From assembly GCA_902772845.1 (NCBI GenBank), contig CACYCI010000017.1, forward strand, positions 1 to 39,303: a stretch of DNA of 39,303 bases. Reading direction: 5' to 3'. Of the stretch, positions 30,046 to 39,205 are shown piece after piece (positions within the stretch are counted from its first letter, which is position 1; each line of letters opens with the position of its first letter). This DNA comes from an uncultured Ruminococcus sp. Lineage in GTDB: Bacteria; Bacillota; Clostridia; Oscillospirales; CAG-382. The position numbers were made by a program, and so were the translations under genes. The notes under the pieces were generated by a model. The model was given only the letters and a program-made list of their open reading frames with translations, had not been told where the DNA came from and made no database searches.

Positions 30046-30752
30046 TAATCGATTATATCCGACACGGAGAAATACGTTACGCGCTGCTGATGCTGCTCGC
30101 CGTCGTCATATCGCTGACCGTGCACGAATTTGCGCACGCGTATATCGCGCACAAATGCGGCGACGACACGGCGTACGCGTTCGGCCGCATGACGCTGAAC
30201 CCGTTGAAGCACATTGATCTGTTCGGCTTTATATCCATGCTGCTTATCGGCTTCGGCTGGGCAAAGCCGGTGCCGGTCAATATGCGCGGCCTGCGCAATC
30301 CGCGCCGTGATATCGCGCTTGTTTCGCTAGCCGGACCTTTGAGCAACTTTTTAATGGCGTTCATAGGCGTCGGTCTGATACGGCTTGTGGGTTTTATACC
30401 TGCGCTCGGAGTAGTAGCGACCAATTTTGGCTCGTTTTTAAGAAGCTTTGTCGATTCGATATACTTTTTGCTGTATATCTTCTGCTTGCTTAACGTAGGC
30501 CTGGGCCTTTTCAACCTTATCCCTATACCGCCGCTCGACGGTTCAAAGGTGCTCGGCTCTCTGCTGCCGCCGAAGTTGGGTATGCGCTTTATACAGCTCG
30601 AACGCTACGCGCCCGTTTTAATGATGGTCATTTTCGCGCTTTCGTATTTTGATGTTTTCGATCCGCTGTTTTATCCGCTGGTATGGCTGCGCAGCCAGAT
30701 ATTGCATCTGTTCACCCTGCCGTTTTTCTTCGGCGCGTTCGCTCCGTTCTGA
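30042..30752 (+). CDS. Site-2-protease-like M50 family zinc metallopeptidase
   Basis: This 236-aa integral membrane protein has the zinc motif HEFAH at H28-H32 within the first helix and the distal NLIPIPPLDGSKVL with the third ligand Asp near residue 168, as in the rhomboid-unrelated S2P/YwhC group. About five hydrophobic segments are present and there is no PDZ domain. It is coupled to gpmI by a 4-bp overlap and followed by scpA after 2 bp; this peptidase-scpA linkage is common in Clostridia. The substrate is unknown. Confidence 0.92.
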   Translation: MIIDYIRHGEIRYALLMLLAVVISLTVHEFAHAYIAHKCGDDTAYAFGRMTLNPLKHIDLFGFISMLLIGFGWAKPVPVNMRGLRNPRRDIALVSLAGPLSNFLMAFIGVGLIRLVGFIPALGVVATNFGSFLRSFVDSIYFLLYIFCLLNVGLGLFNLIPIPPLDGSKVLGSLLPPKLGMRFIQLERYAPVLMMVIFALSYFDVFDPLFYPLVWLRSQILHLFTLPFFFGAFAPF

Positions 30753-30754
30753 TC

Positions 30755-31507
30755 ATGGCGGGGCTCAGCTTAAAGCTTGAGCAGTACGAAGGTCCGCTCG
30801 ACCTGCTGCTTTCGCTTATACAAAAACACAAGATCGATATTTTCGACATTCCCATTGCCGAGCTCACCGACCAGTACCTTGAGTATATAAAGTCCATGGA
30901 ACGCTATGATATGCAGGTATCTTCGGACTTTATATTCATGGCAAGCGAGCTCATGTATATAAAATCGCGGATGCTGCTGCCCGTTCAGCCAAAGGACGAG
31001 GATCCCCGTCAGCCGCTGGTTGACGCGCTGCTCGAATACAGCAAAGCCAGGGAGGCGGCGGAATTCCTGCGGTCGCAGAGCGATATCTATTACGACCGCT
31101 TTGTAAAGGACCCCGACGAGCTCGACGCTCCGCCGATCTACGAGCGCCGCCACTCGGTCGAACTGCTGACCGAAGCGTTCATCAATATCAGCCGGCGCAT
31201 GCCGACAGGCGCCGAGCAGCGGGTAGAGCTTTTTGAAAAGCTCCGCCACGAAAAATTCTATACTGTGGAAGAAAAGACCGAATACACGTTGAATTATCTC
31301 GGCGATCTTAAGCCACACCGGTTTGGCGCCATATTCGAAAGCTGCAGAACGGTGGGCGAAACAGTCGCCACGTTCCTGGCTCTGCTTTCGCTGGTCGGCA
31401 GCGGACGCATAGAGATAATACGCGGCGATACCGGCGACCCGGAAGACCTTGAACTTGTACTGTTGGAAGAAACGGAGGAAAGCGATGAGCAATCTACCGA
31501 TAGATAA
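30755..31507 (+). CDS. scpA: Segregation and condensation protein A
   Basis: This is the 250-aa kleisin subunit of the SMC-ScpAB condensin. The conserved start LKLEQYEGPLDLLLSLIQKHKIDIFDIPI fixes the N-terminus; the ATG at 30755 is 2 bp after the peptidase stop and lacks a clear ribosome site, so it likely relies on coupling. The middle has LMYIKSRMLLP, and the C-terminal winged helix binds the SMC head. It overlaps scpB by 23 bp. Confidence 0.95.
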   Translation: MAGLSLKLEQYEGPLDLLLSLIQKHKIDIFDIPIAELTDQYLEYIKSMERYDMQVSSDFIFMASELMYIKSRMLLPVQPKDEDPRQPLVDALLEYSKAREAAEFLRSQSDIYYDRFVKDPDELDAPPIYERRHSVELLTEAFINISRRMPTGAEQRVELFEKLRHEKFYTVEEKTEYTLNYLGDLKPHRFGAIFESCRTVGETVATFLALLSLVGSGRIEIIRGDTGDPEDLELVLLEETEESDEQSTDR

Positions 31508-34362: not shown

Positions 34363-35283
34363 ATGGAAAATAACGAAGGAATAAAACTTCAGAAATACAT
34401 TTCGGATTGCGGACTTATGTCGCGCCGCAAAGCCGAAGCCGAAATAGAAAACGGAGCGTTCACCATAAACGGCGAGCCGGCCGTTTTGGGCAACCGGGTA
34501 TTCCCGGGGAAAGACGTAGTGGAATACCGCGGCGAACAAGTTGCGCCGCAAAGCAGAAAGTATTACGTCATGCTGAACAAACCGCAGGGGTACGTCACGA
34601 CCACGGCGGACGAATTAGGCAGAAAAAACGTATGCTCGCTGGTGGATCTCCCCGCACGGTTATACCCCGTGGGGCGGCTGGATTACAACAGCGAAGGACT
34701 GCTGCTTCTGACAAACGACGGCGAATTTGCCAACCGCATGACGCATCCGCGCTATGAGCACAAAAAACGCTACCTCGTCACCGTGGCGGGGAGAATAGAA
34801 AACAACGCGCTGGACATGATCCAGCATCTGCGCGAGCTCGACGGAGAGCCGATAAATCCGGTGGAAGTAAAGCTTGCGGAACGGAACGAGAACGCTTCCA
34901 AGCTTATATTCACGCTTACGGAAGGCAAGAACCGGGAAATAAGGCGGATCTGCGAAAAAGCCGGGCTGAGCATCATGCAGCTCAAGCGCTTTGCGCTCGG
35001 TCCGCTTCAGTTGGGCGAACTTGCGCCCGGAAGCTGGCGCCACCTCACCCCCGAAGAAATAAAGGAGTTGAAAAACACAGATGATAACCACAAAACAAAG
35101 GGCATATTTAAGAAAGCTGGGCCAAACGACCGACGCCCTTTATCAGATAGGCAAAAACGGGATAACAGAAACGACAGTAGAAACGCTCGACGCCGCGCTG
35201 ACGGCAAGGGAGCTGATAAAGATAACCCTGCTGGAAACTTCGCCGGTAAGCCCCAAAGACGCAATGGCAGAACTGATGGATAA
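34363..35283 (+). CDS. rluB: 23S rRNA pseudouridine synthase RluB-type with overprinted basic tail
   Basis: This RsuA/RluB-family enzyme has an S4 RNA-binding domain (about 6-60) and the catalytic domain with GRLDYNSEGLLLLTNDG (nucleophile Asp) and the KNREIRR motif. The core ends near residue 240 at HLTPEEIKELK, as in Bacillus RluB. The frame does not stop there: about 67 further codons run through the first two thirds of yhbY and encode a basic, disordered tail with about 8 Lys and 12 Arg. A TTG at 34357 overlapping the previous stop is an alternative start. The target site is probably U2605-equivalent, by homology. Confidence 0.93.
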   Translation: MENNEGIKLQKYISDCGLMSRRKAEAEIENGAFTINGEPAVLGNRVFPGKDVVEYRGEQVAPQSRKYYVMLNKPQGYVTTTADELGRKNVCSLVDLPARLYPVGRLDYNSEGLLLLTNDGEFANRMTHPRYEHKKRYLVTVAGRIENNALDMIQHLRELDGEPINPVEVKLAERNENASKLIFTLTEGKNREIRRICEKAGLSIMQLKRFALGPLQLGELAPGSWRHLTPEEIKELKNTDDNHKTKGIFKKAGPNDRRPLSDRQKRDNRNDSRNARRRADGKGADKDNPAGNFAGKPQRRNGRTDG

Positions 35284-35374
35284 GCTCGGTTGCGAAGCGG
35301 TGCAGGTCATAGGCCGCAAGGTCACCGTATACCGTCCCAATGCGGAAAAACCTCGCATAGTCCTTCCGCGCTGA
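35081..35374 (+). CDS. yhbY: YhbY/CRS1-domain RNA-binding protein
   Basis: This 97-aa protein binds the pre-50S ribosome. The N-terminal KQRAYLRKLGQ and the loop QIGKNGITET (GxxG-type) are the CRM domain signature; EALTARELIKI-like and AVQVIGRKVTVYRP complete the fold. AAGGAG lies 12 nt before the ATG within rluB codons. It overlaps rluB by 203 bp in another frame, and both frames look genuine. The next gene's first ATG overlaps its stop. nadD, the usual downstream neighbour, is missing. Confidence 0.94.
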   Translation: MITTKQRAYLRKLGQTTDALYQIGKNGITETTVETLDAALTARELIKITLLETSPVSPKDAMAELMDKLGCEAVQVIGRKVTVYRPNAEKPRIVLPR

Positions 35375-35987: not shown

Positions 35988-36362
35988 ATGGAAAAGAACA
36001 CCCACGAATACGCACGCCAAATTGCCGAAGCCGTCGCAAACGCGCTGGACGGCAAAAAGGCGCTGGACATAAACGTACTCACGGTGGAAAAGAGCACCGC
36101 GCTGGCGGATTTCTTCGTCATTGCCGCAGGCACTTCCTCCACCCACATTAAGGCGCTCGCCGACGAGGTCGAATTCAAGCTCAAAGAAACGCTCGGCGTA
36201 GAACCGTCGCATATAGAAGGAGCGGACGACAAGACCTGGATCCTGCTCGATTACGGCTGCGTGGTGGCACACGTGTTCACGCGGCAGGCGCGTGAATATT
36301 ACAAGCTGGACAAGCTTTGGGCGGACGCCGGCGCTGCGGCTGCCCCGATAAAGGAAGATTAA
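35988..36362 (+). CDS. rsfS: Ribosomal silencing factor RsfS
   Basis: This 124-aa protein binds L14 and blocks subunit joining when nutrients are low. The family pattern KALDINVLTVEKSTALADFFVIAAGTSSTHIKALADEV is present, as is WILLDYGCVVAHVFTRQAREYYKLDKLWADA at the end. It starts 2 bp after yqeK, behind GGAAGG. It is the expected last member of the yhbY-yqeK cluster and leads into leuS 25 bp later. Confidence 0.96.
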   Translation: MEKNTHEYARQIAEAVANALDGKKALDINVLTVEKSTALADFFVIAAGTSSTHIKALADEVEFKLKETLGVEPSHIEGADDKTWILLDYGCVVAHVFTRQAREYYKLDKLWADAGAAAAPIKED

Positions 36363-36387
36363 AGTTACAGTAAGGAAGTATACAGCT

Positions 36388-38799
36388 ATGAAGCACGATT
36401 TCAAACAAACGGAGCCGAAATGGCAAAAGCGCTGGGAAGAAGCGGGCGCTTTCAAGACCGGCCGCGATCATTCCAAGCCCAAATTCTACGGTCTTGTGGA
36501 ATTCCCCTACCCTTCGGGCGCGGGTATGCACGTAGGGCATATAAAGGCGTATTCCGGGCTGGAGGTAATATCGCGGAAACGCCGTATGCAGGGCTATAAC
36601 GTCCTGTTCCCGATAGGGTTCGACGCATTCGGTCTCCCCACGGAAAACTACGCAATAAAGCACAATAAGCATCCGCGCGTCGTCACCGACGAAAACATAG
36701 CCCATTTTACCGAACAGCTCAAACGCGTGGGCTTTTCGTTCGACTGGGACCGCACCGTTGACACGACCGATCACGATTATTACAAATGGACCCAGTGGAT
36801 ATTCCGCAAAATGTTCGACAACGGCCTTGTGTTCCGCGACAAGACGCTTGTCAATTATTGTCCCTCGTGCAAATGCGTGCTTTCCAACGAAGATTCCCAG
36901 GGCGGCAAATGCGATATCTGCCATTCGGACATAGTTCAGAAGAGCAAGGACGTATGGTATCTGCGTATAACGGCGTATGCCGATAAAATGCTCGAAGGTC
37001 TTTCCGAAGTCGATTTCCCCGAAAATATCCGCGCCCAGCAGGAAAACTGGATCGGGCGTTCCTCCGGTGCGTTCGTGGATTTCGAGCTTTCGGGCAACGA
37101 TGAAAAGCTGCGTGAAAAGCTGCGCATCTATACGACGCGCTGCGACACTCTGTTCGGCGTGACGTTCATGGTAATGGCGCCCGAGCATCCGCTTATAGAC
37201 AAATATTCGAACCGCATAGCCAATATGGATCAAGTCGCGGCCTACCGCGAAGAATGCGGCAAAAAGACCGAATTCGAACGCACCCAGCTCGTAAAGGAAA
37301 AGACCGGCGTGCGGCTTGACGGGCTTTGCGCCGTCAACCCCATTACCGGCAAAGAGATACCCATTTATATTTCGGACTACGTTATGATGGGGTACGGCAG
37401 CGGCGCGATAATGGCTGTCCCCGCGCACGATCAGCGCGACTGGGAATTCGCCAAGAAATTCGGCATAGATATCATCCAGGTCATCAAAGGCGGCAATATA
37501 GAAAAATGCGCGTACGACGGCGACGGCGAGATGATAAATTCCGACTTTTTGAACGGCTGCACCAACAAAAAAGAAAGCATAGAAAAAATGCTTGCCGAAC
37601 TGCAGAAGCGCGGCATAGGCGAAGCGGGCGTACAGTATAAAATGAAAGACTGGGCTTTCAACCGCCAGAGATACTGGGGCGAGCCCATCCCCATAATTCA
37701 CTGCCCGCATTGCGGTATGGTCGGCGTTCCGTACGATGAGCTTCCTCTGCTTTTGCCGGAAGTTGAAAATTTCGAACCGGGCGAAGGCGGGGAATCGCCG
37801 CTTGCCAAGATCGATTCGTTCGTCAACTGCATCTGCCCCAAATGCGGCGGCAAAGCCCGGCGCGAAACGGACACCATGCCTCAGTGGGCGGGTTCTTCGT
37901 GGTACTATCTGCGTTATATAGATCCTCATAACAGCGAAAAGATCGCCGACGAGGACGAACTGAAATACTGGCTCCCCGTAGATTGGTACAACGGCGGTAT
38001 GGAACACGTTACGCGGCATCTGATATATTCCCGCTTCTGGCACCGTTTCCTTTACGATATAGGCGTTGTCCCCACCAAAGAACCGTTTGCCAAGCGCACC
38101 GCGCAGGGCCTGATACTCGGCCCTGACGGCGTAAAGATGTCCAAATCGCGCGGAAACGTCGTAGATCCTCTGGACGTTATCGAACAGTACGGCGCAGACA
38201 CACTGCGCGTTTACGTCCTGTTCATGGGCGATTACGGTTCCGCCGCACCCTGGTCGGTCACTTCGGTGCGCGGCTGCAAAAAGTTCCTTGAACGCGTCGC
38301 CGCCATGACCGATATGATCACCGCGAGTTCGGACAAAAAAGTGGTGAAATCGCTCCACGCCACAGTCAAAAAGGTATCCGCCGATATCGAAAGCATGAAA
38401 TTCAACACCGCCATTGCGCAAATGATGACTTTCGTCAACGACGTTTACGCCTGCGGCGGGATATCCCGTGAAGACCTTATCACGTTTATAACGGTACTCA
38501 ACCCCTTCGCGCCGCACCTCACCGAGGAAATGCACGAATCTCTGGGCGGGACCGGGCTGCTTTCGCTCGCCGCCTGGCCGGAATACGACGAAGCTCTGCT
38601 CGCTGAAGACACCGTTGAAATAGCGGTACAGGTCTGCGGCAGATTGCGCGCCACCATAGAGCTCCCCAAGGACTGTTCCAAAGGAGAGGCCGCAAGGATC
38701 ATAGCCGAATCCGGCAAAATAGCTGCTTTTACCGAAGGCAAAACCTTCGTAAAAGATATATACGTCCCTAACAGGATCTACAACATCATTATTAAGTAA
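36388..38799 (+). CDS. leuS: Leucyl-tRNA synthetase
   Basis: This 803-aa class I synthetase has the usual bacterial length. The HIGH-type motif is HVGH at 48-51, and KMSKSRGN lies near residue 590. The CP1 editing domain contains [21 protein letters not shown] and the Thr-rich hydrolytic pocket, zinc-like Cys pairs are at CPSCKC...CDIC and in the later CPKCGG, and the C-terminal anticodon-binding domain is complete. AAGGAAG precedes the ATG. The 25-bp gap to rsfS has no room for a T-box leader. Confidence 0.98.
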
Positions 38800-38812
38800 A
38801 GGAGGAACAACC

Positions 38813-39205
38813 ATGGCAGAAAAGAAGAAATCCGGATTTTGGAAAGACTTTAAGGATTTCATCAGCAAGGGCAACGTAATAGATCTGGCTGTCGCGGTAG
38901 TCATCGGCGCCGCTTTCAACAAGATCGTTTCGTCGTTCGTCAATGACATCATCATGCCGCTCATCAGTCTCATCGTAGGCGGTAAGAGCGTTGCTGATTG
39001 GAAATGGGTCATCACCGAAGAAGTCGTAAAAGACGGTTCGGTCGTTACCGCAGAAAACGCTCTGCGTTACGGCGCGTTCATTCAGAACGTGATCGACTTC
39101 CTGATCGTCGCTTTCTCTATCTTTGTCGTGCTTCGCGCTTTCACCAAGCTTCAGAACAGAAGAAAGAAAGCAGAAGCTGCCGAAGAAGAGAAAAAAGACG
39201 CTTAA
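38813..39205 (+). CDS. mscL: Large-conductance mechanosensitive channel MscL
   Basis: This 130-aa channel protein releases solutes on hypo-osmotic shock. The first helix [31 protein letters not shown] is the family signature. The second helix is about residues 82-103, followed by a charged cytoplasmic helix ending in [16 protein letters not shown] precedes the ATG. Its stop shares one base with the next start (TAATG). Confidence 0.97.

Follow-up and report, generated by a model that had tools for sequence, protein, structure and literature searches.

Can the 3' end of one bacterial gene be written over the start of its neighbor for some 200 nucleotides, and is such an arrangement real, inherited and of any use? 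The question is raised by the window, a stretch of 39,303 nucleotides from an uncultured Ruminococcus sp., in which an rluB-type gene (34,363-35,283, forward strand; ATG at 34,363, stop TAA at 35,281-35,283; 306 aa) ends inside yhbY (35,081-35,374, forward strand; 97 aa). A survey of 338 prokaryote genomes judged 715 of 715 co-directional overlaps longer than 60 bp to be errors, the longest real one being the 56 bp shared by holD and rimI (PMC2478687). Among the results listed by our literature search, there was no earlier report of an overlap between rluB and yhbY.

Identity of the two genes

We characterized both products by profile searches and structure matches. The RluB protein, laid out as an S4-like N-terminus, a pseudouridine synthase core (approximately residues 1-236) and a 70-residue tail, scored above the cut-offs of PF00849 (PseudoU_synth_2; 85.3 bits versus 26.8) and TIGR00093 (151.5 bits versus 109.3), and its GRLD motif with the catalytic aspartate (G104, R105, L106, D107) is invariant in 25 sequences. 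The S4 domain PF01479 at the N-terminus reached 17.2 bits, below its cut-off of 22.8, with model helices at residues 9-15 and 21-29. The best PDB match was RluF (3dh3), and RluB structures (4lab, 9cl9) were also recovered. The product of yhbY is a CRM-domain ribosome assembly RNA-binding protein that matched CRS1_YhbY (PF01985; 89-90 bits versus a cut-off of 27; E 1.3e-25) and the structures 1rq8, 1ln4 and 1jo0. Since the equivalog cut-offs were missed by RluB (NCBIfam RluB of the E. coli type, 112.8 versus 290; NCBIfam RluF, 164.5 versus 318) and by YhbY (TIGR00253, 58.6 versus 78.5 in a match spanning the full length), we do not claim exact equivalence. Family membership is certain for both; 'RluB' is a family-level name here for an RluB/RsuA-type pseudouridine synthase, and 'YhbY' is likewise used at that level only. 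A gene for a D-Ala-D-Ala carboxypeptidase lies upstream of the pair, and genes for an HD-domain protein and RsfS follow downstream.

The overlap is real and shared across the genus

The rluB frame lacks a stop where the conserved core ends (around 35,070) and stays open for 67 sense codons counted from the codon that spans the yhbY start. This gives an overlap of 203 nt (35,081-35,283, forward strand) in which one DNA segment is read in two frames, just as the earlier note had described. In the terms of PMC2542354 the two genes are in phase 1: the yhbY ATG begins on the second base of an rluB codon (GAT GAT). Our family sample comprised 63 genomes, including four from the window's own genus (G000, the window itself, G045, G046 and G047); a search of the genome collection for further species of the genus returned none that were new. 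Aligning the locus in these relatives, as the earlier note had proposed, revealed a long overlap in a single phase in 4/4 species: 203 nt in G000, 191 nt in both G045 and G046, and 269 nt in G047, the most distant species (compared with the window, its YhbY is 66% identical and its RluB core 69%). The position of the rluB-frame stop shifts among species (63, 67 or 89 codons). Both gene lengths are conserved in all four species, and outside the genus rluB is mostly shorter. The YhbY start MITTKQRAYL is conserved within the genus, and a candidate Shine-Dalgarno sequence, AAGGAG (35,062-35,067, forward strand), lies 13 nt ahead of the ATG, still in the rluB coding sequence, and is kept in 4/4 species; translation of yhbY would begin at its own site within rluB.

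It is highly improbable that the overlap is an artifact of an indel introduced in sequencing or assembly, or that a programmed frameshift usually stops rluB at ATGA. A near-slippery G-AAA-AAC does precede the junction in the window, but four concordant assemblies share the frame, and we reject assembly error on that ground. The relatives were sequenced in three separate projects, so that all of them should carry one and the same sequencing indel is very unlikely. A -1 frameshift at G-AAA-AAC is disfavored by the missing A-run in G047.

Other long overlaps in the four genomes appear to be of a different nature. Among 140 adjacent pairs, five further same-strand overlaps exceed 60 nt, and inspection of the N-termini suggests that these look like over-long downstream starts rather than 3' extensions. 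Within the window, the longest-ORF start of an ScpA-like gene produces a 70-nt overlap with the preceding gene (30,683-30,760), which is probably false, with a likelier start (MAGLSLKLEQYEGPLDLLL) downstream. Opposite leuS, the reverse strand holds an open frame of 912 aa (36,277-39,015), which was rejected as a gene: nonsynonymous change between relatives exceeds synonymous change (pN 0.16, pS 0.10), the pattern that a mere shadow of leuS should show.

rluB repeatedly extends over different downstream genes

Comparison across the family and order revealed several arrangements at the 3' end of rluB. In g4, rluB terminates in an ordinary 4-nt ATGA overlap with yhbY. In g6, g3 and g10, a small gene, which we call X, sits between rluB and yhbY, and rluB enters it in phase 1, the shared stretch measuring about 45 nt in g10 and in several genomes of g6. 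Gene X encodes about 115-130 aa (MIKVTPEIDREKI...GGICLFKL...RNT...), adjoins rluB in several genera (loci L007, L009-L011, L016, L019, L042, L043 and L049) and has look-alikes beside rluB across the order; the two sequences tested, X among them, had no Pfam match. A search of the window's genus did not recover X, although an empty search result alone is weak evidence.

Separate phase-1 overlaps of 68-80 nt at the rluB 3' end occur at loci L221, L225, L229, L230, L240, L233, L165 and L167-L169, all exceeding the 56-bp record of PMC2478687. Across the family and order, rluB covers xseB by 71 nt (G002, G010, G011, G016; 32 nt in G020), X-like genes by 77-80 nt (G082, G111, G135, G144, G216; for G111 the count begins at a GTG start picked by likeness) and a DUF896 gene by 68 nt (G181). 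rluB is a repeat trespasser in the order, extending in phase 1 over differing genes with a K/R-rich tail every time, although the loci from the order were chosen for long open frames and the recurrence figures are thus no estimate of frequency.

Reconstruction from present-day relatives points to a deletion route by which the window's arrangement may have arisen. The ancestral rluB would already have lain in phase 1 over gene X, as it does today in g6 and g10. The sequence ATGATAA at the yhbY start (35,081-35,087, forward strand) carries the stops on which an rluB frame in phase 2 would terminate, the situation in g4, and in most g6 genomes gene X begins with a direct repeat of it. Loss of X, perhaps through deletion between these two copies, would have laid the same rluB frame onto yhbY and left the phase-2 stops unread; since ATGATAA holds stops for the other shifted frame, phase 1 alone can run on. 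Joining the copies in silico in g6 removed X and kept rluB in phase 1 over yhbY, and, where rluB was in phase 1, the resulting tails would span 4-33 codons.

The tail is predicted to be disordered and is poor in hydrophobic residues

The C-terminal tail past the conserved core (35,071-35,280, forward strand) had been described as strongly basic, low in hydrophobics and similar to the disordered, RNA-binding tails of other RluB proteins. In its overlapped part, the K/R fraction is 0.30 and the fraction of bulky hydrophobics 0.06. The likeness to other RluB tails holds across the order, with the same composition whether the tail is encoded on free or overlapped DNA (K/R 0.33 versus 0.32; bulky hydrophobics 0.08 versus 0.06; n = 22 versus 20). 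Tails on free DNA reach up to 100 residues in other RluB proteins. At L018 (G039), where gene X is absent, an 80-residue K/R-rich tail on free DNA ends 51 nt before yhbY and is the non-overlapping counterpart of the window's tail.

Disorder is borne out as a prediction. AlphaFold2 placed a confident core before a tail that is unfolded from about residue 240 except for one low-confidence helix, with block means of 70-94 before residue 241 and 35-52 from there on, and pLDDT below 50 at residues 240-261 and 274-306. This tail may bind RNA.

The basic charge and the low hydrophobicity fared differently against controls. The K/R fractions of the tails in the four species (0.24-0.32) resemble the means of random open phase-1 windows from the same genomes (0.24-0.28), so the charge is largely forced by the phase; this control rules it out as proof of selection, and 'strongly basic' finds no support as a mark of function. 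An enrichment in K/R had seemed likely when judged by codon resampling alone, and orthologues without the overlap lean likewise. Bulky hydrophobics, in contrast, are far scarcer in the tails (0.06-0.08) than in the random windows (0.20-0.28), and the share of windows as low as the tail was 0.000, 0.007, 0.011 and 0.036 in the four species. Synonymous codon resampling of yhbY expects 0.10-0.17, so the scarcity comes partly from the amino acids of YhbY itself.

Selection, if any, favors an open, hydrophilic tail

We assessed whether the tail frame is kept open beyond chance by synonymous codon resampling of yhbY. The window (P 0.08-0.16) and its two near relatives (P 0.13-0.23) are open to their observed length in 8-23% of resamplings, and 6 of 100 yhbY orthologues without the overlap are open for at least 63 codons, with 4.1 expected. 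The 89 codons of G047 gave P 0.004-0.007; in this species, avoidance of T-ending stop-making codons was strongest (1 T-ending codon at stop-risk sites versus 4.8 expected; T3 depletion P ~3e-4). One genome's overlap alone is not beyond chance, while retention in 4/4 species is unusual. In the yhbY frame, synonymous divergence within the overlap was 0.40 for G000-G046 and 0.55 for G000-G047 (the 7.8 and 5.5 percentiles of equal windows) versus 0.81 and 0.72 in the rest of yhbY. This overlap-versus-rest contrast lies above that of 35/35 control genes in one pair and 8/9 in the other; the dip is small for G046-G047 (0.63 versus 0.67), and pS for G045-G047 is likewise 0.63. As to the synonymous constraint that the earlier note had suggested measuring, yhbY thus shows a modest dip. 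Residues in the tail frame drift freely, and from one species to another there are radical exchanges (H>D, K>A, D>H, G>R); almost all changes that are synonymous in yhbY affect the tail, and we reject a conserved tail sequence. Most of these P values are of modest size, the near species form a non-independent group of three, and the sample holds just two deep lineages. We take the data as weak support for selection that keeps the tail open and hydrophilic, and as no support for selection on its sequence.

These results bear on how the overlap should be read. An effect on expression seems unlikely; here the tail would be irrelevant, and passage over the yhbY start by ribosomes still translating rluB would reduce the synthesis of YhbY or set its pace. 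The g4-type stop-start coupling at a 4-nt ATGA has been lost and AAGGAG kept inside rluB, as such a role might predict, but AAGGAG also encodes a conserved K-E at the end of the core, so its retention is not independent evidence, and interference would require no set overlap length, and the lengths range from 191 to 269 nt.

A stronger reading is possible though less likely than not: a true same-strand dual-coding segment of 190-270 nt, selected in both frames for a CRM domain and for a disordered, RNA-contacting pseudouridine synthase tail, with rluB repeatedly building its tail by overprinting the next gene.

A more serious contender, to which we give somewhat less than an even chance, is neutral trespass: a stop was lost, the extra residues are idle, and openness and hydrophilicity follow from YhbY's amino acids, codon usage and phase. 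The K/R match to random windows and the chance openness of the window and its near relatives agree with this, as do controls without the overlap, which also have fewer stops and more K/R than resampling predicts (mean z -0.6 and +0.7), and published models that need no selection to explain the origin and survival of long phase-1 overlaps (PMC2542354, PMC3887535). Against it stand the 89 open codons of G047 with their T3 depletion, the low bulky hydrophobics relative to random open windows in 4/4 species, and the yhbY contrast with control genes.

We consider it probable that this real, inherited overprint of the rluB 3' end is tolerated, and that as a generic disordered tail it may be of slight use. 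Under this favored explanation, the tail would be made by ordinary translation of rluB, because the earlier stop is absent. It would persist because the C-terminus of RluB, being free and disordered, can carry additional charged and hydrophilic residues and may even gain slightly from them in the vicinity of rRNA. Selection, if any, would keep the tail open and hydrophilic without fixing its sequence.

Comparison with known overlaps and tails

The rluB-yhbY overlap is three to five times the 56-bp record, involves two known ribosome-related genes and is found genus-wide. It shows growth of a disordered protein end through overprinting, and the recurrent overlaps of rluB with xseB, X-like genes, the DUF896 gene and yhbY form a natural series for asking whether such tails are tolerated or useful. 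The overlaps with xseB (71 nt), X or X-like genes (about 45 and 77-80 nt) and the DUF896 gene (68 nt) share with rluB-yhbY the upstream gene, the phase and a K/R-rich tail; rluB-yhbY differs in its downstream gene and its longer overlap. Like holD-rimI (PMC2478687), rluB-yhbY is a conserved co-directional overlap of two known genes, but it spans 191-269 nt rather than 56 bp.

It is also of the same kind as known long phase-1 overlaps (PMC3887535, PMC2542354), on the same strand and in phase 1, with an upstream gene longer than its orthologues and a downstream gene of normal length. It stands apart from these in being very long, in being kept in 4/4 species of a genus and in its hints of second-frame selection. 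The tails of E. coli RluB and RluF (PMC3919597) are alike in adding about 40 residues past the core: the last 40 of RluB are predicted to be disordered and are poorly conserved, and the matching part of RluF is disordered in the stem-loop complex and was judged not to contribute to binding the stem-loop. The tail in the window differs from both in being encoded inside the next gene.
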